A stretch of 64,000 nucleotides of DNA. Origin: Incurvaria masculella. Its lineage: Eukaryota; Arthropoda; Insecta; Lepidoptera; Incurvariidae. The notes beneath the pieces are model-generated. The model saw only the letters and a list, made by a program, of their open reading frames with translations, did no database searches and was not told the DNA's origin. The stretch is taken from NCBI GenBank assembly GCA_946894095.1, contig OX335657.1, positions 12,462,001-12,526,000 on the forward strand, given 5' to 3'. Shown here piece after piece: positions 3,720-23,915 of this stretch; position 1 is the first letter of the stretch, and every line of letters begins with the position of its first letter. The position numbers were made by a program, and so were the translations under genes.

Positions 3720-5045
3720 ACACTGATTTTTCAAAAGTGAGAATTCGTCTTCCCTTCGCCCTTATATGAAAACCAGGTGAAGAACTAATTAAGAATAATT
3801 AAGAATCTTAAGGACTTTCTCAAAAATTAAAAAATCATCTTAGACAAACAACACGGATTTGTGCCCGGTAGGTCTGTCGTTACCAACTTACTTACATGTG
3901 TTAATCATTGGACCGCAGAATGGGATCAACGGCAACCTTCCGATATTGTCTACCTAGACTATGAAAAAGCTTTCGACCGAGTGCCTATAAGAAGACTTTT
4001 GTTAAAATTGGAACATTTTGGAATACGAGGAAAACTTCACACCTGGCTTTCTGATTTTCTGACCAACAGAAAACTTAGAGTGAGAGTGGGTGATGAAGTT
4101 TCCGAGAATAGACCAGTTCATAGCGGCGTCCCCCAAGGTTCAGTTATCGGGCCGATTGCCTTCGGTATTTACCTAACGGACTTACAAGCGATCCTACAGA
4201 TGATATACTCCCTGTTTGCTGACGACGCTAAAATCATCGGGAACCCACTCACGCAGCACACTGACATACAGGATGATCTAAACCGCATTACTGCATGGAC
4301 GCAAGACTGGTTAATGTCACTCAACGTGGACAAATGTACAGTCGTTCATATAGGAAAGCAAAACCCAAGGAAAACATACAATTCAGGGTAACACTCTAAA
4401 AAGTGTGAATACACAAAGAGATTTGGGTGTCATAATCACAGAAGATCTAAAATGGGAGGCACACATTATAAGAGAGTGAACACAGAGTGAAGAGAGCAAA
4501 CTCATTGCTGTATACCATAAACAAAGCTTTCTCCCATATAACCCCTGAGCTTTTCCAAAAGCTTTATAAAACACATGTGCGACCTATGTTGGAGTATGCA
4601 TACCAGATCTGGAGTCCCTACTTCAAGAAAGATATTGACCTGCTGGAACAAGTACAACGTAGAGCAACAAAAATGCCAACTGCACTGAAAAATAAAAGTT
4701 ACGGAACCCGGCTGGACAAGCTTGGCCTCACCACTCTACAAGAACGAAGAGAACGGGGAGATCTTATTGAAACATTTAAAATTCTCAACTCTTCTTACAA
4801 CTCTACCAATCTACAAGATATGTTCACCCTTGCTAATACTAAAAACCTGAGAGGACACTCAAAAAAGCTGTATCACAATCGGTCGAAGCAGAACCCTCGA
4901 CGACACTTTCTTGCCAACAGAGTAGTAGAATCTTGGAACAGTCTTCCCAGTGAAGTTGTAAACGCTGTAAATTCCTTCAAAAATAAACTGGACAATCATA
5001 TAAAATAAAAAAAAAAATTATAATAAATAAATAAGAGTTGTGATA
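3720..5045 (+). mobile_element. 5'-truncated non-LTR retrotransposon (CR1/Jockey group), broken
   Basis: This is a reverse transcriptase pseudogene. The frame running through 3861-4391 carries fingers/palm motifs: block A 'VYLDYEKAFDRV', block B 'SGVPQGSVIGP' and the catalytic 'LFADDAK' (a FADD variant of YADD). It stops at about 4389. A second frame (4487-5008) continues with the thumb and C-terminal part ('HVRPMLEYAYQIWSP', 'RATKM', final 'VVESWNSLPSEVVNAVNSFK'). At least one frameshift plus a damaged stretch near 4390-4490 separate the two. The N-terminal third of the RT and any ORF1 or endonuclease are missing, as expected for a 5'-truncated insertion. The 3' end runs into AATAAATAAATAAG and then TAATA-rich simple sequence. 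It cannot be active. Confidence 0.9.
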
Positions 5046-8511: not shown

Positions 8512-8758
8512 TCAGCCGCCCCTCCCCCTCCCGCGCCCCCGGAACCCGCCCCTGCCGCGCGCCCGCCCCGCGCCCTTGTTCGTGTTGGGCGGACTCTTCG
8601 GCCGCAGCGCCTCGATGCGGTCCGTGCAGCCGGTCGTGTCGCGCCCCTCCGCGAAGTACGACGCGTACAGCTCCGCGTTGAAGTTGGAGTTGGTGAGCTC
8701 GTGACCGACGGTCACCCAGCCCGGGCGGATGGTGGAATCGCGGCCGAATATGTGCAGT
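8512..8758 (-). CDS. METTL14: METTL14 coding exon 6 (last)
   Basis: The acceptor CCCACAG is followed by A, which completes the split arginine codon (AG|A). The exon encodes '[18 protein letters not shown]', the end of the methyltransferase fold, then 'ALRPKSPPN' and an RGG-type tail ending in RGRGRGG before TGA at 8514-8512. RGG tails in METTL14 are known to contribute to RNA binding. The exon is markedly GC-rich compared with the surrounding introns. Confidence 0.95.
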
Positions 8759-11700
8759 CTGTGGGCGGGGACGGTTGACGCTTTTATCTCATACAGTACG
8801 CGCCATAGATAAAAAGGAAGGAGATATGCCATCTAGGATGGATGGCTAATACCACACCCACTGTCATGATATTAACCCAATTTCAACCCAACACCGCATT
8901 CCCGAAGGAAGTAGGTTGGAAGTAGGCGCACATTGAACTGGATGGAAAACACGGACAATTTTTTACTGGCGCTCCGACCATCTTTTCATCCAATGCGAGG
9001 GTACAAACCTGCGCGGGCTTAACCCGGCCACCTAGTAAAGGAAGGGGACCTGCAGTTTTACATGGATTCCAAACCATTATATAGATTTTTATGACACCGC
9101 TTGCTGTGGAGTTGCTGGTGGACTGGAGGATGTGTGCAGTTTAGAAGCAATTCACAGTTATAATACAAAAGTATGCATGTAAATCTATAAATATATTTTA
9201 ATGGAACTGGGCATTGATGGCTAATATCACACCTGCTGTCGTGATCAGCCCAGCATTAGACTAACACACCACGTTCCCATAGAAATTAGGTGTCATGCCA
9301 GGACTTCAAACATTTTATTGAACTGTCTAGAAAACTTTTCATTGTCGCTTCGTCTATCTATCATTCATTGTGATGGTACCAGCTCGGGCAGGATCAAGTG
9401 GCGAAGGAGAATTATAGTTGGAAGTGGAATCCGAACCATGGCCAAATAGTCACCCATCCAGCCTCAGTAACCTTGATGATATAACAAAGGAATCACGCCA
9501 CCAAGCTACCGAGTACAACTAGTTGAACTAATAAACAAAGTCACTGCCATTTATATATTTTTTTTCAGGTCACACACATTGTGCGCTGGTATGTAAGGTG
9601 TGCTGCCGCCTCAATTCCCCCCCCCCCCTTTACAAACCCCTCTCTTAGAAAGTTCATTAATATTGTCAGAGTAGAACTATAATGCATGGATAGACAGACA
9701 GGAAGAAATTATAATGGTTTCGCTTTTGCCATTTGGATACAGAACCCTAAAAATATTATCCTTAACTTGACAAAACATATTTTTTATACCATCTCACCTT
9801 CTACGACCCAAGCAGAAATGCTCCATGATGTGAAATATCTCAATGGGCTTCTCGTGACTCCCAAACTCCGGGTCCTCCGATATTATCAGGTCGATGTCGA
9901 CGTTAGCGTGTATGAAGTCGCCGTCAGTCGACCGTCGGACCGTCCCCTTGATGCCCATGAGACAGTGCTCCTTGGTGCGCTGGAACACGGCGTTCTGTTC
10001 GAGATTCTTCGAGTGCCCCGGATTGTTGATGTTGGTCTTTATCCAGCAGATGTCTTCGCAGCGCCGGAAGCCCCACTTCTTTAGGCAGTCTCTTCCCATA
10101 TCCAGACCTAAGGGTCAGAAATTGTCAGAAAGTCATAATGTATGTTACCTGTACCTGTTGGAAGAGGAAAAAAGAAGCAATATTGCAAGTAAAGCCAATA
10201 TGCTGACACCAGAATGCTCTAGCTTCGTGATAGTTTATTCCCCACGACTTCTTTTGATTAGCATAATTAAGAACAATTTATTTTTAGAACAACTTGGAGA
10301 AAATTGAGGCGTTTCAATTACATAGATTAAGTAAATAAAATTTTCAAATCTTGAAAAATCTTTTTCTTTGAAAATTGTCCGTGTTTTCCATCCAGTTCAA
10401 TGTATCCGAGCAATGCAAGGAAGTTCCTGGCATGTCAGCTAGTTACCATGTGGTGTTTTAGGCTAATATCTGACGGTCAGTTTGGTATTAGCCATCCATG
10501 TCCAGTTACTAAAAACAAAAATTATAGTACTCGTTTTTCTGAAAGACTCAATTGAATTCCAATAGGCTCTAGCTGCATCTTTCCTCACAACGCAACCCTT
10601 TTACCTCTGTAGCTGCGTAAATAGGCAAAATAAGTGTTATACATGTTGACATACCATCGGAGCTGCCGCACCAGAGGAAGACGAAGCTGCGCGGCTGCGC
10701 AAGCTGCGGCACGTCCAGCGCCAGCACGTCACGCCGCATCCACTTCCCGCCCAGCGGCGGCTCCACCATGATCACGTTAAACTTGTTGACATACCATCGG
10801 AGCTGCCGCACCAGAGGAAGACGAAGCTGCGCGGCTGCGCGAGCTGTGGCACGTCCAGCGCCAGCACCTCGCGCCAGCTCCACTCCCCGCCCAGCGGCGG
10901 CTCCACCATGATCACGTCGAACTTGTTGACATACCATCCGAGCTGCCGCACCAGAGGAAGACGGAGCTGCGCGGCTGCGCGAGCTGCAGCACGTCCAGCG
11001 CCAGCACGTCGCGCCAGCTCCACTCCCCGCCCAGCGGCGGCTCCACCATGATCACGTCGAACTTGTTGACATACCATCGGAGCTGCCGCACCAGAGGAAG
11101 ACGAAGCTGCGCGGCTGCGCGAGCTGTGGCACGTCCAGCGCCAGCACCTCGCGCCAGCTCCACTCCCCGCCCAGCGGCGGCTCCACCATGATCACGTCGA
11201 ACTTGTTGACATACCATCCGAGCTGCCGCACCAGAGGAAGACGGAGCTGCGCGGCTGCGCGAGCTGCAGCACGTCCAGCGCCAGCACGTCGCGCCAGCTC
11301 CACTCCCCGCCCAGCGGCGGCTCCACCATGATCACGTCGAACTTGTTGACATACCATCGGAGCTGCCGCACCAGAGGAAGACGAAGCTGCGCGGCTGCGC
11401 GAGCTGCGGCACGTCCAGCGCCAGCACGTCGCGCCAGCTCCACTCCCCGCCCAGCGGCGGCTCCACCATGATCACGTCGAACTTGTTGACATACCATCGG
11501 AGCTGCCGCACCAGAGGAAGACGAAGCTGCGCGGCTGCGCGAGCTGCAGCACGTCCAGCGCCAGCACGTCGCGCCAGCTCCACTCCCCGCCCAGCGGCGG
11601 CTCCACCATGATCATGTCGAACTTGTTGACATACCATCGGAGCTGCCACACCAGAGGAAGACGAAGCTGCGCGGCTGCGCGAGCTGCGGCACGTCCAGCG

Positions 11701-14700
11701 CCAGCACGTCGCGCCAGCTCCACTCCCCGCCCAGCGGCGGCTCCACCAGGATCACATCGAACTTGTTGTTCATCTGCTTCAGGTCGAACGCCTGCGGAGA
11801 ACGCCGACGTGCACATCACACCATTATTGGCCAAGTACACGCCAGGTGTCAGCGACAACCCCCATAGAGCTTGCACGAAGCTTCAGAAGGGCTCGTAGGA
11901 TGGACTTACCTTGCATAAAACAAGTTAAAATTACAATATTGGACAAAATGTCCAATAATTGCCAGAACACTCAGCATATAATGCGAGCGTGTACATGTCA
12001 ACATGTAATGCGAGAAATATCTAGAAGGTGCATCTGTATAGAAAAGAAATCAACATTGTTTATTCAAAATATGCTAATGAAAAAATCATGCAAAATGTAT
12101 TTCTCATAATAAAGTTTAAAAAACAGTTTGGGAACATTTACGAAACTAACTCAGCAGCAATGTTTGTTTACCCAGCACTAGGCGTCACGTGATGTAGTCA
12201 AAATCAAACTTTTGAATCTTCATAAAACAAGCTAGCCTTGATGACTAAGATTTTTTAGATGTCCTTGTTTTATCATTGCATAATCCAGGTCTAAAAGCAT
12301 AAACCGCGCAAAAGATTCGAACTGTCGACCCTATAACTTTGAAACCAAACACAATTTTACAATTCAATGGTCATCAAATACCTAGGTAGTTCGATTAATT
12401 AAAGCCGTTTTTTGTATACTTTTGGATCTCCGACAAGAAATATGCGTATGATCTTCTTGCCACATTTGTATGGGGAGATGAGTGGGAAGGCCCGCCTTAA
12501 GGTCGTCCCGTAAGCATCAGAAAATTTCGCCTCCCATACAAACGTAGTTTACTAATAATTTGAAAACCACTGTTCCAACTTACTTGATATTTGGTATCTA
12601 ATATTAGGCTACAAATATCTGTGTCTGCATGTCTTTGTTTTTTCGGTAAATGTATTCTGGGTCAAACTACAGAGAAAACAAAATTCGCATGAAGATTTTC
12701 TTTTTGCTTTAATTTCATTCGGTTTAGATTTTTCAAAAAAACAAAAGCGTGCAGACACAGATATTTGTTACCTGATATTAGATATTAAATATCAATTTCA
12801 TTGGAATAGCGGTTTCCAAATGATTAGTAAACTATGTTTGTATGGGGAGCATAGCTTACGGGCCGTACTTAAATATTGTTTTTGTCTCCGAAAAAAATCT
12901 CTCATTGTTGTCTGTTTTATTTTACTTCCAGTCCATTTTATCTACGAATGTTTATCTATTTGACTATCTTTATCTTTAAAATCATCGTAGAAGGGGAGTG
13001 AATAAACAAGGATACAAATTTACCGACCAAGCAAAAGCTAAGTCATCCATGTGCCTGACGAACAATGTCACGGAGCCAACCTTGAGATCGCACTTGAGGT
13101 ACATGGGCGGGGTGGCGGTGTCGGAGATGAGGTCATCCTTGAGGCGGATCAGCTCCCGCAGCTTGGGATACTCCTCGAAGCGGTCGGCGAGACCCACGTC
13201 GCGGATGAAGTTCTGCGGCCGCTGGCCCGTATCCACGAAGTGCTGACAGTAGTCGTTGTGGGGGTTGGATGACTGGGTGCCCTGCAGTAGTAAAGGTGTG
13301 TTTATATGATTGATTTTTCAAATAAACAAAATAAGGAAAATAATATTTAAAACCAGCTGAGGTTCCCGGCTCCGCTGATTTCGTTTTATATAGCCCGGTA
13401 TAATTAAACGGTCAGTAAAAAAAAATTGAACCCCACAACAGCGCCACCTAATGGGTCCAACTATAGATAAGAACCATCCGCGGACTTAGAATGACTTAGA
13501 ATCCATGAAGCAGTTGTTAATCCTCTTAGTTTCTCGACCTCAAGCGATACATTAAAGTAATTTTACATTACATTAAAGTAATTTTTCTTCCATTCTCAAC
13601 TCATCGCCTTCTAAGCTTCTGGTGAGAAGCATGATGACCGACCTTGAGAAAGGTGGAGGAGTCAGTGTACAGGAGTTGGTCCGGCGGTGCAGGCTCGGCT
13701 GGTTTCTCTGCGGCGTGCTCGACTGTCGCTTGCTTTTTGCTGGGAACATCCGCCGAACTGCCCAGCGCATGCCGCAACTCCCCCACGCTAGACACACCCA
13801 GCTGAAAGGCAGATAGAAGAAGTGAGGAGTATATACCATTTATAGAAATTTAAAGATCAAATGACAATAGCTTTTTCTCATAATTGGGCAGAAGCACTTT
13901 CATCCAGTTCTTAGAGATATGTGTGAATATTTTGGCACTTTTGCAGATTGAAATGCAGTGTTGCTAATAAATTTAGCTTAGTTAGTTTTAAACTGTGCCA
14001 TAATGCGGAAATGTATGTTTTAGAAATCTTAAATTCGCTCTGAGGTCTGACCTTCCGCAAAATTTAAAGGCCCGAATATATAACCAGTGCATCCTCCCGG
14101 TTATGACTTATGGGTGTGAAACATGGACTCTGGTGTTCGCCGTTGTCCAAAGGTTGAAAGTTGCCCAGCGAGCGATGGAGTTAGCCATACTGGGAATATG
14201 GGATATGGTGCATAATGAGGCAATCCGCTGACGTACCAGAGTAGTCAATATTGGACACCGGGTGGCTAAGCTCAAATGGCAGTGGGTTGGTCACATCAGC
14301 CAAAGAGACGACGACCGTTGGAGTAACTGTGTCCTACACAGGTGGCTGTGGACAGGAAAACGGAGTGTGGTCCAGGTGGGACGACCACATAAAGTCCGTC
14401 GACGGAAAGCAGTGGTTCCGTACCGCTGAGGGTCCGGAGGACGAGAGAAAAATTGGCTAATGAGTCATAATAGTCGGCAGCTCTAGACTTGTATCGAAGA
14501 TTGATCACAATACATTACCAGCGGTAATCTACAATGAAGTAGTTATACCGTACTCTAAAACAGTAAACAATCTAGGCGTTTTAATTGATGACACCCTGTC
14601 ATGGGCGCCCCAGGTAAATGAGATCAGCAGGAAAATCTTTGCTGCCGCCCACTCTTTAAAACGCTTACAGAGTTTCCTTCCAATCCGTACCAAAATCACG

Positions 14701-15959
14701 TTGACGCAAACTCTCCTACTTCCAATTTTAGATTATGCAGATGTGTGCTTTTTGGATTTAACTGAAGTTCTCCTTGATAAATTGGAACGTTTACAGAATC
14801 TCTGCATTCGCTACATATATGGTCTGCGTAAATACGACTATGTATCGCAGTACCGTCGTCAGCTTAAATGGCTACCCATTCGTTATCGAAGGAACTGTCA
14901 CATACTCACTCTTCTTTTTGGGGTCTTAAATAACCCTCACTCTCCTGAGTACCTTCGTTCCCGATTCTTGCACCTATCTTCACACGGTCTCCCTCTACAT
15001 TCTAGTGACGACAGTATCCTTGCGATTCCCCGCCATACAACTTGCTTCTTTTCCAACTCCTTCACTGTACATGCAGTACGTCTGTGGAACTCGCTGCCTT
15101 CCTCCGTCCGCTCTTGTCAAACTATCGGCTCTTTCAAGTCGAGAATCAAGGAGTTTTATTTAAATGAAATCTGAATATACTATTTTTATCGCTGTACATT
15201 TTTCTTTTTATTATCATCAAAGAAATAGGTAGATATTTTTGTTTTGTTTTAATTTGTTCCTAAATTGTGGATATACAATATATATTTTAGTATATTGTAT
15301 TATATATATTAGTTTATTTTATTCAAAGTATGCTTGTATTGTTATGTAAATTATGGTTTATGTATGTTTATACTGTATGTATATATATATATTTTTTTAT
15401 TTTATTTGCTTTATTCTTTTCCTTTCAAATTGCTATTGTGTACCTACCTACAGATATTTTAGATTGTCTCTCCTCATCACCCCAAAGGTTGACTGGAAGA
15501 AATCGCTCCTAGTGATAAGTCCGCCTTTGTGCAATTTTGTTGTTGTTTCGAATTGTTTTTGTAATTGTACTTGTTTTCTATTGCACAATAAAGAATTTAT
15601 TCATTCATTCAAAATTGGAGAGGCGTATGTCCTGCTGTGGACGCAAACACACTGACTGACTGACTGACTGACTTGTTTTAGAGTGTTAAGTGGATATGTA
15701 ATTTTTTAAGGACGCACTCTTTGGATACCCCTTCCTAACCTGCAGGAGCAGCAGGTCATCGTAAGGTGGCGTAGTGGGTCGATATTGAATATAAAACCGG
15801 CTCGTTAAGAGCGGGTTGTGCCTGATTGACCAATCGCTAATCACTGCTATCAAATGTTACCTGTGTCCAGAGTGTATTGTATTGTAAACTTACGGTTTGC
15901 GCGATGAGTTTTTTTCTCTTCTGCGAGCGCTCCCGCAGTTCACGTAATCGTTCGCTCAT
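8512..15959 (-). CDS. METTL14: METTL14, N6-adenosine methyltransferase non-catalytic subunit (six coding exons)
   Basis: METTL14 pairs with METTL3 in the nuclear m6A writer. It supports METTL3 and helps bind substrate RNA but does not itself catalyse methylation. The coding exons, in gene order on the minus strand, are 15959-15894, 13801-13643, 13281-13081, 11791-11635, 10107-9798 and 8758-8512. They total 1140 nt and give a continuous 379-residue protein. All introns are GT-AG, with phases 0,0,0,1,2. Family signatures seen are the basic N-terminal helix ([18 protein letters not shown]), '[17 protein letters not shown]' and '[20 protein letters not shown]', EPPL at residues 159-162 (in the place of METTL3's DPPW), 'FLWCGSSDG', '[14 protein letters not shown]', '[14 protein letters not shown]', '[16 protein letters not shown]', '[13 protein letters not shown]', and an arginine/glycine-rich C-terminal tail. 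Length is close to that of insect homologues. Two things are odd: the loop after EPPL is very short, and the 3' part of exon 4 is tandemly amplified into intron 4. Confidence 0.97.
8830..9080 (-). repeat. SINE, minus orientation, lacking head
   Basis: It carries the reverse complement of the family body: 'GGATGGCTAATACCACACC', 'GAACTGGATGGAAAACACGG', 'GACCATCTTTTCATCCAATG'. It lies within METTL14 intron 5 and starts within about 75 bp of the exon 6 acceptor. Confidence 0.85.
9205..9520 (-). repeat. SINE, minus orientation, with tRNA-like head
   Basis: The 3' body is at the left ('GATGGCTAATATCACACC') and the head is at the right. Read on the minus strand the head gives 'CTCGGTAGCTTGGTGGCG', which is box-A-like. 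It lies in METTL14 intron 5. Confidence 0.8.
9798..10107 (-). CDS. METTL14: METTL14 coding exon 5
   Basis: The acceptor CCCTTAG is followed by GT, completing the glycine codon split with exon 4 (SSD-G-LDMG). The 310 nt encode residues 195-298, including '[20 protein letters not shown]', '[20 protein letters not shown]', '[15 protein letters not shown]' and '[16 protein letters not shown]'. This is the most conserved core of the family. The donor is AGAAG|GTGAGA. Confidence 0.96.
10108..11634 (-). other. METTL14 intron 4, most of it a copied-exon array
   Basis: It runs from the first donor (GT at 11634-11633) to the acceptor at 10109-10108. About 980 nt of it are seven extra copies of the exon 4 3' segment. 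The remaining part holds a SINE (10369-10510) and short unique sequence. Confidence 0.93.
10369..10510 (+). repeat. SINE body fragment, opposite to METTL14
   Basis: It has 'GTCCGTGTTTTCCATCCAG', then the subfamily variant 'GAGCAATGCAAGGAAG' and 'TCTGACGGTCAGTTTGG', ending 'AGCCATCCATGTCCAG'. The tRNA-like head is missing. Confidence 0.85.
10647..11766 (-). repeat. METTL14: Eight head-to-tail 140-bp copies of the METTL14 EPPL exon segment
   Basis: The unit reads, on the gene strand, from AACAAGTTCGA to GGTATGTC and is 140 bp long. Eight exon/intron-like boundaries (GATG|GTATGT) fall exactly 140 bp apart, with last exon bases at 11635, 11495, 11355, 11215, 11075, 10935, 10795 and 10655. Each unit keeps an uninterrupted frame for KFxVIxVEPPLGG through FLWCGSSDG and a full donor, but there is no splice acceptor between units. 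Copy 1 (next to the true acceptor) has VILVEPPL, matching the family. Copies 2-8 have VIMVEPPL. Copies carry amino-acid changes (VPQL to VLQL, RDVL to REVL, RSF to RSS). The gene-distal copy is most diverged ([14 protein letters not shown]). A 280-bp dimer (10791-11070 and 11071-11350) reads as identical by eye. Confidence 0.97.
11635..11791 (-). CDS. METTL14: METTL14 coding exon 4 (EPPL exon, productive copy)
   Basis: The acceptor is CTCCGCAG and the exon starts GCG TTC GAC ([20 protein letters not shown]). It ends TCC GAT G with the donor GTATGT. Its 157 nt end in phase 1, as exon 5 requires. Residues 143-195. Only 'GGE' separates EPPL from '[11 protein letters not shown]', whereas vertebrate and fly METTL14 have more than ten further residues here. 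The last 133 nt are the founder unit of the intron 4 array. Using any later donor would read D-G-M-S-T-S-S-T and then TGA. Confidence 0.95.
11792..13080 (-). other. METTL14 intron 3
   Basis: It is bounded by the donor AAG|GTTGGC (13080-13079) and the acceptor at 11793-11792. It holds a MITE (12507-12862); the rest is AT-rich without recognisable exons. Confidence 0.9.
12507..12862. mobile_element. MITE with about 130-bp inverted terminal repeats
   Basis: The left arm (from CCCGTAAGC, with 'CCCATACAAACGTAGTTTAC' and 'ATATCTGTGTCTGCA') is the inexact reverse complement of the right arm ('TGCAGACACAGATAT', 'GTAAACTATGTTTGTATGGG', ending GCTTACGGG). The spacer of about 100 bp is AT-rich. It lies inside METTL14 intron 3. 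Related end fragments are at 61-122 and 6790-6826. Confidence 0.85.
13081..13281 (-). CDS. METTL14: METTL14 coding exon 3
   Basis: The acceptor is CTACTGCAG. The 201 nt (67 codons, phase 0 on both sides) encode residues 76-142: '[20 protein letters not shown]', '[20 protein letters not shown]', '[20 protein letters not shown]'. These match the conserved region just before the methyltransferase core. The donor is AAG|GTTGGC. Confidence 0.96.
13282..13642 (-). other. METTL14 intron 2
   Basis: It is 361 nt, from the donor AAG|GTCGGT at 13642 to the acceptor at 13283-13282. It is AT-rich, and no element was recognised. Confidence 0.9.
13643..13801 (-). CDS. METTL14: METTL14 coding exon 2
   Basis: The acceptor is TGCCTTTCAG. 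The 159 nt (53 codons) encode residues 23-75: '[16 protein letters not shown]', a low-conservation lysine/proline/alanine-rich linker, and '[11 protein letters not shown]', which leads directly into [12 protein letters not shown] in exon 3. The donor is AAG|GTCGGT. Confidence 0.93.
14020..14470 (+). mobile_element. RTE-type LINE 3' fragment, broken
   Basis: The translation shows the C-terminal part of RTE-clade reverse transcriptases: '[18 protein letters not shown]', '[16 protein letters not shown]', '[20 protein letters not shown]', 'WSNCV...[13 protein letters not shown]'. There are in-frame stops (for example after 'NEAIR') and frameshifts. It is antisense in METTL14 intron 1. Confidence 0.85.
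14490..15612 (+). mobile_element. Non-LTR retrotransposon 3' fragment (Jockey/CR1 group)
   Basis: One open frame from about 14500 to 15174 encodes the RT C-terminal region: '[17 protein letters not shown]', '[13 protein letters not shown]', '[15 protein letters not shown]', '[20 protein letters not shown]' and a final FYLNEI stop. An AT-rich 3' UTR follows, ending in AATAAAGAATTTATTCATTCATTC. The catalytic RT core is missing (5' truncation). It is antisense in METTL14 intron 1. The unbroken 3' frame suggests a younger insertion than the RTE piece beside it. Confidence 0.88.
15894..15959 (-). CDS. METTL14: METTL14 coding exon 1
   Basis: ATG at 15959-15957, preceded by GTAAAAAAG. The 66 nt encode 22 residues, [20 protein letters not shown] then QT, matching the basic helical N-terminus of METTL14. 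The donor ACC|GTAAGT is strong. This start fits because it is followed directly by the conserved opening and no upstream in-frame coding sequence is needed. Confidence 0.93.
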
Positions 15960-20739: not shown

Positions 20740-21090
20740 TGAGCCGGTAGTCTCAGTTGTCACCTAAATTGGCGTTACGGCAAACCGATCGACTGGCGTT
20801 TTCAAATGTATGGAGAAATTGAAGAGCGCGCGCAGCGGGCATTAAGCGAACTAACATTTGCGAGTCCGAGCTTGATTTGACAGCTTACTAAACGTTGCCG
20901 TAAATACGTCGACGTTGCCGTTTACGTCCACTCCGCGTTTTCATACAAATCGGAAGTCCGCGTTTGACTTTGACAGCTTGAAGAAGTAAAACCACAGAAT
21001 ATCTAGTAAAAACTTGTATGGAGTTTGGAGAAAACGCCAGTCGATCGGTTTGCCGTAAACGCCAATTTAGGTGAGAACTCAGACTGACCA
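20740..21090. mobile_element. Fold-back family unit 3 (composite)
   Basis: It has the same order as unit 1 (GAGCCGGTAGTCTCAGTTGT at the left, 'AGAACTCAGACTGACCA' at the right) with few differences. It probably descends from the same composite. Confidence 0.8.
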
Positions 21091-21319
21091 TTCAAAGCTT
21101 GATTTGACAGCTTACTCAACGTTGCCGTAAATACGTCGACGTTGCCGTTTACGTCCACTCCGCGTTTTCATACAAATCGGAAATCCGCGTTTGACTTTGA
21201 CAGCTTGAAGAAGTAAAACCACAGAATATCTAGTAAAAACTTGTATGGAGTTTGGAGAAAACGCCAGTCGATCGGTTTGCCGTAAACGCCAATTTAGGTG
21301 AGAACTCAGACTGACCACT
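21091..21319. mobile_element. Fold-back family unit 4 (left-truncated)
   Basis: It starts inside the element ('AGCTTGATTTGACAGCTTAC') and continues to the 'GACCACTCT' end, parallel to the second halves of units 1 and 3. Confidence 0.78.
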
Positions 21320-23198: not shown

Positions 23199-23747
23199 GT
23201 AAGCGTTCTTATCAATTTATATTCGGTTGCATTTATCGCCGTAGCGTGTCTGATTAGGATTGATAGGACGCCAATATGTGCCATATGACCAAATGGAATT
23301 TGAATGTATGCCCATTCGACTTGCTGGAAACATTATAAATAACAAACCAATACCTAAACTACTTTAAGTGCTGGATATTCCATAGAAATTGTGGAGGCCA
23401 CAATGTCCATATTGACCAGTGGTATGGACTTTGGTATTTGGATCCTATTAGTCATTCATACTTGCTGGTTCAAAGATAACCTATACATAAACAAAGATAT
23501 TTCATTGCATACGATTAAGTAGGTGTGCCATCGAAGTATTTAAAAAATACTACTAGGTACCATTGCTCCCCTCGGGTCATTGTCGTTTTTGGGCTGAATG
23601 ATTTCCTGGATATTATACAAGTTCCCAATACAAACATTCAGCCCCTATTTCACCCACTTCGAGTTTAATTTTCGCCGCAAATGGTAGCCTATGTCATTCT
23701 CTAACATCCAGACTAGGTATACCGTTTTTTTATTTTATTTTATTTTA
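23199..23747. other. Non-coding, no feature recognised
   Basis: AT-rich sequence after the putative donor. No repeat or gene supported. Confidence 0.4.
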
Positions 23748-23915
23748 CTGGACATTGATGGCTAACTAACACCAAACTGACAGTTAGATATTAGGCTAAC
23801 ACACCATATAGGAACTAGGTGCCATGCCAGGATCTTGTTTATATTGCTCGGCTACATTGAACTGGATGGAAAACACGGACAATTTTCATTGCCGCTTCGA
23901 CCATCATTCATTTAT
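23748..23915 (-). repeat. SINE fragment, minus orientation
   Basis: It has 'GGACATTGATGGCTAAC' and 'GAACTGGATGGAAAACACGG', ending in the 'GCCGCTTCGACCATC' body. The head is missing. Confidence 0.85.

Follow-up and report, generated by a model that had tools for sequence, protein, structure and literature searches.

METTL14 carries an array of eight identical splice donors

In the stretch of DNA analysed here (64 kb, hereafter the window), which comes from an insect, probably a lepidopteran or a caddisfly, a gene predicted to encode METTL14 contains a head-to-tail array on the minus strand (11768-10649), made of eight 140-bp units without indels. Each unit corresponds to 134 nt of exon 4 (in copy 1, the last 134 nt of the exon itself) followed by 6 nt of intron 4. 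The array resembles a minisatellite, or VNTR, that crosses a splice donor, in that its units lie head to tail and each has a donor. We think that it is probably (about 0.7) a splice-silent repeat that is tolerated by the gene, with low leakage into unstable RNA and without a selected role. When the first donor is used, the added copies would be wholly intronic and the protein would not change. The array would therefore be silent at the protein level because the repeat crosses the 5' splice site only.

The gene is otherwise intact, with six exons encoding 379 aa:

15894..15959 (-) METTL14 exon 1, coding part from the ATG
13643..13801 (-) METTL14 exon 2
13081..13281 (-) METTL14 exon 3
11635..11791 (-) METTL14 exon 4, full-protein form; first base 11791, donor 1 after 11635
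9798..10107 (-) METTL14 exon 5; all eight donors would splice to its acceptor
8512..8758 (-) METTL14 exon 6, coding part with the stop codon

The closest PDB match of the predicted protein is the METTL14 entry 6ttp_B (E 2.9e-159), with EPPL aligned with EPPL, and its Pfam match is MT-A70 (E 6.9e-54). Among the matches listed (120 of 1425), the top five database proteins are 81-85% identical to it, and three of these five (Arctopsyche, Zerene, and Eumeta) carry METTL14-type names, taken from the source's own ncbi entry. Judged from these similarities, the gene is METTL14, a member of the MT-A70 family and the predicted non-catalytic subunit of the m6A writer, as the earlier note on this DNA had proposed. 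A protein search of the assembly (552 Mb, 31 contigs) gave at least 13 matches, 12 at the METTL14 locus and one weak (36%, on C23), and revealed no second METTL14 locus. Because the coding sequence is intact and conserved and no second METTL14 was found, donor 1 must be used, or have been used until recently, often enough for selection to act on the frame downstream of it. A short loop follows EPPL in exon 4. It is also present in five of the ten other aligned sequences (P0001, Zerene, Danaus, Eumeta, and the caddisfly Arctopsyche) and thus predates the array, so we dropped it from the account of the repeat.

The units of the array and the rest of the intron are the following:

11629..11768 (-) copy 1; genuine end of exon 4, then GTATGT; donor after 11635
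11489..11628 (-) copy 2; donor after 11495
11349..11488 (-) copy 3; donor after 11355
11209..11348 (-) copy 4; donor after 11215; same sequence as copy 6
11069..11208 (-) copy 5; donor after 11075; same sequence as copy 7
10929..11068 (-) copy 6; donor after 10935
10789..10928 (-) copy 7; donor after 10795
10649..10788 (-) copy 8; donor after 10655; the most divergent, with 8 private changes; original intron next
10108..10648 (-) remainder of intron 4 beyond the array; 35.5% GC

Tandem Repeats Finder reports the array at 10644-11768 (period 140, 8.0 copies, 96% matches, 0% indels, score 2094). The earlier note had placed this array at 10647-11766, a difference of two bases in where the unit is taken to start, and had rightly described an exon segment copied head to tail with its own donor and an open EPPL frame in every copy. 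The EPPL-to-SSD frame is indeed open in 8/8 copies, and copies 2-8 carry amino-acid changes. We consider it very unlikely that the copies result from misassembled reads. The eight units differ at 17 of 140 positions in a patterned way, with eight sites private to copy 8, and an array of 1.1 kb in a 31-contig, 552-Mb assembly could be crossed by single long reads, if these were used.

The GATG/GTATGT donors on the minus strand have their last exonic bases at 11635, 11495, 11355, 11215, 11075, 10935, 10795, and 10655, and are mutually identical across GATGGTATGTCAACA. The donor 10-mer occurs eight times on the minus strand of the 64-kb window and never on the plus strand, for a chance expectation of about 0.12 on both strands under equal base use. 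All eight donors score 7.39, above those of exons 1-3, on a position table for vertebrate donors, which serves solely to show that the eight are equal.

Products expected from each donor

Use of donor 1 gives the full protein, whereas splicing from any of donors 2-8 includes a TGA in the transcript and gives one and the same truncated product of 201 aa. The truncation anticipated by the earlier note is thus obligatory. It follows from the position of the TGA, which precedes donor 2; the unit length (140 mod 3 = 2), to which it had partly been attributed, is irrelevant, since donors 4 and 7 truncate as well, although the sequence that they add is a multiple of three. The distance from the premature stop to the exon 4-5 junction ranges from 117 nt with donor 2 to 957 nt with donor 8, and the stop is at least 427 nt ahead of the last junction for all of donors 2-8. 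Nonsense-mediated decay (NMD) acts on transcripts whose premature stop precedes a junction by more than about 50 nt. By these distances, calculated on predicted transcripts, the stops of donors 2-8 are placed as in a poison exon or AS-NMD element.

We expect donor 1 to be used in most transcripts because exon 4 would then have an ordinary length (157 nt, against 1137 nt with donor 8) and because donor 1 is transcribed first. Leakage from donors 2-8, mainly from donor 2, would occur at a low rate and produce truncated, NMD-prone RNA. Some features point the other way. A composition step often marks the end of an exon, and here the step (67% GC in the array, against 35.5% in the remaining intron) falls at donor 8, not at donor 1. 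Donor 8 is also the nearest to the acceptor, with the shortest intron (547 nt, against 1527 nt from donor 1), and donors 7 and 8 are the most open when 200 nt are folded. Composition, intron length, and folding could thus favour late donors. If donor 8, or several late donors, were often used, the sequenced individual would carry a strongly reduced METTL14 allele. In the moth Plutella, a strain homozygous for a mutant METTL14 is viable (excerpt of PMC9456542), so donor 1 need not be under strong selection. Still, we find frequent use of late donors improbable. The exon would reach 1137 nt, there is an intact and conserved reading frame downstream, and the private changes of copy 8 suggest that the array did not arise very recently.

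The earlier note stated that the copies have no acceptor. This holds for true acceptors; however, an acceptor-like CAG is found 8 nt upstream of the donor in 8/8 copies, preceded by 11 pyrimidines in 16 nt, when the five real METTL14 acceptors have 10-14. The CAG of a copy might pair with an earlier donor, making 8-nt microexons or allowing stepwise splicing, and the array would then be a source of nascent introns. This seems extremely unlikely: exons of 8 nt are far below the size that is usually recognised, the CAG is also present in copy 1, within a normal exon, and the donor context is ATG/GT instead of the AG/GY of proto-splice sites. In its favour, besides the pyrimidine-rich stretches, tandem duplications are a known source of introns (excerpt of PMC2891723).

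In an indirect and weak test of whether later units serve as donors, the strings MSTSST, WYVNKF, and VCQQV were present in none of 240 database proteins (120 listed of 1425 and 120 of 411), the first 120 of which lack the species' own full-length METTL14 (best match 85%). A query with the array-frame protein gave one weak match, which covers 33% of the query at 48% identity.

Selection, structure, and feedback

None of the 17 variable sites (of 140) falls within the 10-nt donor (chance P 0.26) or within the 15 nt formed by the donor and CAACA (P 0.13). The invariance of the donors is within chance and gives no support to selection on them; tested within the array, the conservation beyond chance that characterises poison exons was not found. 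The coding changes in copies 2-8 are synonymous in 5/14 cases, against 24.8% expected with transitions weighted twice transversions (p 0.36; this count excludes the 3 changes found in copy 1 alone and takes the three adjacent changes of copy 8 singly). Coding constraint on these copies is thus unsupported, and their changes look neutral.

Predicted folding does not single out donor 1. In 120-nt windows the eight donors are about equally closed (GTATGT unpaired 0.055-0.077). In 200-nt windows the values are 0.010-0.016 for donors 1-5, 0.035 for donor 6, 0.074 for donor 7, and 0.073 for donor 8. Structural masking of donors 2-8 is therefore unsupported by these models, which would favour the last donors, if any. 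We also searched 11791-10649 for DRACH-like sites and found a single one, at 11771; its A, at 11769, immediately precedes copy 1. A direct m6A feedback from the repeats thus has no obvious basis.

These results bear on the suggestion of the earlier note that the array tunes m6A-writer dosage. In such a scenario, controlled use of donors 2-8 would send RNA to decay and lower METTL14, with array length setting the level. The equal donors, their scores, and the truncation that follows from any of donors 2-8 are compatible with it, but the array and its donors show no sign of selection and no obvious m6A feedback. Nothing in the sequence supports regulation: chance could account for the invariance of the donors, the changes in copies 2-8 look neutral, and donor 1 has no advantage in predicted accessibility. 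We thus regard a regulated ladder of poison donors as unlikely, and a length-tunable brake, in which donor competition sends a fixed or regulated share of METTL14 to decay and copy number, differing among individuals or populations, forms an allele series of dosage, as quite unlikely. The neutral minisatellite tolerated by the spliceosome, which the earlier note gave as its other option, fits better.

Growth of the array

Exon and intron share the motif CAACA, which is found at both ends of the array. Copies 4 and 5 are identical to copies 6 and 7 over 280 bp, and copies 2 and 3 differ from both pairs at 5/280 positions. This microhomology and the growth by 280-bp dimers look like those of a minisatellite. 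We infer a tandem duplication of the segment from 23 nt inside exon 4 to about 6-11 nt into intron 4, with CAACA as the joint, followed by expansion, partly as 280-bp dimers, through unequal exchange or slippage. The dimer expansion suggests that copy number may vary between individuals. Taking a lepidopteran mutation rate near 3e-9 per site per generation, the 8 private changes of copy 8 in 140 nt would roughly date the array to the order of 15-20 million generations. The array may in truth be much younger, because three of these changes are neighbours and there is an excess of CpG changes.

More generally, a duplication crossing only a 5' splice site can hide in an intron, and may be tolerated because it is hidden there. 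Eight identical 5' splice sites in near-identical 140-nt surroundings, with common upstream and downstream acceptors, are also a natural test of donor choice, in which transcription order, exon length, and nearness to the acceptor are the candidate determinants among equal donors.

Comparison with known systems

The earlier note knew of no such case in METTL14. We found no repeated donor of this kind among the METTL14 papers listed, judged by titles and abstract openings. The same kind of arrangement is already known in other genes. The IFI6/G1P3 minisatellite was reportedly described with multiple splice donor sites by Turri, Cuin and Porter (1995, NAR 23:1854); its unit is said to be donor-like and about 12 bp long, and its use to add a few residues. 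A sentence citing work on human IFI6 states that its repeat units serve as splice donors (PMC4526556); there, units beside the end of an exon act as alternative donors, as those of METTL14 might. In METTL14, the exon end itself is repeated and the extended isoforms would be truncated, whereas the IFI6 unit is reportedly short.

The VNTR in intron 18 of human ABCA7 starts at the donor of exon 18, and the donor of its second unit is used, with a frameshift and a premature stop (excerpt of PMC5954066). Like the METTL14 array, this repeat begins at a real 5' splice site, and in the excerpt the canonical donor is still used alongside the second-unit donor, which accounts for 2 +/- 1% of transcripts, as read from the order of the paper. 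There, longer repeats correlate with lower expression and more skipping of exon 19, which speaks for control of METTL14 by array length; the retention of the unit is independent of VNTR size, which argues against such control. The ABCA7 unit is 25 bp long and intronic (its first two bases are the GT), with at least 12 units, whereas that of METTL14 is 140 bp long, mostly coding exon, in eight copies, and in an insect.

Tandem duplication of exonic sequence has been described as a route of intron gain (excerpts of PMC2891723 and PMC2809761). It resembles the METTL14 array in that a duplicated coding copy is removed as intron and NMD may buffer mis-splicing. In those accounts a duplicated AG/GY proto-splice site supplies both sites of a new intron; in METTL14 the site is ATG/GT, an existing intron is lengthened, and the donors multiply. 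Work on the miR-137 VNTR reports novel donors within the miR-137 precursor (excerpt of PMC6692358), a case that we set aside. What is new in METTL14 is that the unit is most of a coding exon, and that eight identical donors lie in near-identical surroundings.

METTL14 and the array in exon 4 and intron 4

Protein similarity identifies the gene carrying the array as METTL14. Its six exons, whose borders are predicted from GT/AG sites and protein similarity and not from RNA, join into an open 379-aa protein. This protein has 6ttp_B, which we take to be a human entry, as best PDB match (E 2.9e-159), and matches Pfam MT-A70 (E 6.9e-54).

Predicted METTL14 exons (GT/AG sites and protein similarity)
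15959-15894, minus strand, exon 1
13801-13643, minus strand, exon 2
13281-13081, minus strand, exon 3
11791-11635, minus strand, exon 4
10107-9798, minus strand, exon 5
8758-8512, minus strand, exon 6

The five best database proteins are P0001, the closest match to the deduced protein (85% identity), that of the caddisfly Arctopsyche (83%), and those of the Lepidoptera Zerene (82%), Danaus (82%), and Eumeta (81%). They share with the deduced protein a short loop after the EPPL motif that is absent from the five other aligned insects, which makes a lepidopteran or a caddisfly the very likely source. A protein search of the assembly gave at least 13 matches, 12 at the METTL14 locus and one weak match on a different contig (36% identity, E 5.6e-5); within these counts, which are lower bounds, we found no second METTL14 able to take over.

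The earlier note had described eight tandem copies of the exon end, each with its own donor (5' splice site), and this observation is right and tidy. A 140-bp unit, made of 134 nt of METTL14 exon 4 and the opening 6 nt of intron 4, is repeated eight times head to tail on the minus strand (11768-10649) with zero indels. Copy 1 is the true exon end, and the donor sequence, GATG followed across the splice site by GTATGTCAACA, is identical in all eight copies. The 64-kb window holds the 10-mer GATGGTATGT eight times, in every case on the minus strand (expectation ~0.12). In the assembly (552 Mb, 31 contigs), the unit matches 8 places, every one inside the array. That the copies are an assembly artefact is very unlikely.

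The exon (..GATGAACAACAAGTTCGA..) and the intron (GTATGTCAACATGTATAAC..) share CAACA exactly at the junction, and the simplest reading of the origin would thus be a tandem duplication joined by microhomology. Three differences from copy 1 are common to copies 2-8. Copies 4+5 and 6+7 are identical across 280 bp, and copies 2+3 differ from these pairs at 5/280 positions, which suggests that dimer steps account for part of the expansion. Copy 8 has eight private changes; end copies of arrays often carry such changes. Among the copies, 9/10 C>T or G>A changes are at CpG (p 0.001, with 36/95 C/G bases in CpG), an excess that would be consistent with methylation of exon and copies in the germline.

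Consequences of donor choice

Donor 1 yields the full METTL14 protein. The earlier claim that any of donors 2-8 truncates it holds: exon 4, 157 nt long with donor 1, would measure 297-1137 nt, and each of the seven would give the same 201-aa product because a TGA falls between donors 1 and 2. This TGA lies upstream of the exon 4-5 junction by 117-957 nt and upstream of the last junction by 427-1267 nt, and the 201-aa form keeps only a fragment of MT-A70 (profile positions 24-56 of 172). We think it quite improbable that the gene with the array is a damaged allele. With a simple score from a vertebrate position table, donors 1-8 all reach 7.39, those of exons 1, 2, and 3 reach 5.92, 5.87, and 4.59, and that of exon 5 reaches 10.72. 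An acceptor-like CAG lies 8 nt 5' of the donor in 8/8 copies; use of these sites is unlikely, and microexon or stepwise splicing is extremely improbable.

Possible selection and probable preference for donor 1

Variable positions make up 17/140 of the unit and none is in the donor, which has a chance probability of 0.26 (10 nt). Synonymous changes in copies 2-8 (5/14) are as expected without constraint (p 0.36). A regulated brake on METTL14 is unlikely. Predicted local pairing gave no advantage to donor 1, and in 200-nt windows donors 7 and 8 are predicted to be more open. The GC content is 67% in the array vs 35.5% in the rest of intron 4, so that composition would mark donor 8 as the exon end. 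Pairing, composition, and variation offer no simple reason why donor 1 should win; they are neutral on this or speak against it.

The main argument for the predominance of donor 1 is the intact gene. It is weakened by work on the moth Plutella xylostella, in which a strain homozygous for a METTL14 mutation (14-bp deletion) was maintained and tested; the study also reports a single METTL14 transcript in this moth (PMC9456542). As an indirect test for transcripts from donors 2-8, the protein collection was searched: the 201-aa query had 411 matches (120 listed) and one array reading frame had a single weak match. Array-specific strings were in 0/240 proteins listed for the full-length and 201-aa queries, which means little because the 120 proteins listed for the former do not include the species' own full protein. 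Functionally, the array is most likely unremarkable: a splice-silent minisatellite derived from the exon end. We give a tolerated repeat with low leakage a probability of about 0.7.

Other repeats in the window

METTL14 intron 3 contains a 314-bp near-palindrome (12533-12846), 77.7% self-complementary from end to end and perhaps a MITE-like element; in the pre-mRNA it could fold into a large hairpin upstream of exon 4. Intron 4 contains a ~150-nt repeat fragment (10368-10520) with many relatives in the window, e.g., 47179-47031 (90.6%), 23733-23888 (83.3%), 16865-16707, 19748-19607, and 5890-5734. A reverse transcriptase fragment lies on the plus strand at 3861-5008; its part at 3861-4391 matches Pfam RVT_1 (E 1.1e-21). 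The next frame, at 4487-5008, may be its continuation; Pfam yields a single match for this frame (E 0.00058), which does not reach the cut-off of the family concerned. Two copies of a 227-bp unit at 20869-21317 (99% matches) are probably a recent tandem duplication.

Comparison with known systems

The donors in repeat units of human IFI6 were reportedly first described by Turri in 1995. Among the listed open-licence papers on METTL14, judged by title and start of abstract, we found no such array in this gene; a case may be in print elsewhere. Arrays of the same kind, with repeat units as splice donors, are described: those of human IFI6 supply additional donors (PMC4526556), and a 25-bp VNTR of human ABCA7 takes in the exon 18 donor (PMC5954066). 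There, use of the second unit's donor retains one unit and breaks the frame, in 2 +/- 1% of transcripts (a figure assigned by the order of two in the paper); retention is independent of VNTR length, and longer alleles show more exon 19 skipping (PMC5954066). Introns have further been proposed to arise by tandem duplication, in an arrangement that differs from the METTL14 array (PMC2891723, PMC2809761). The kind is thus already described in ABCA7 and IFI6, but the METTL14 array is unusual, and well suited as a natural experiment on how donors are chosen, because its unit comprises 134/157 nt of a coding exon and eight identical donors are kept.
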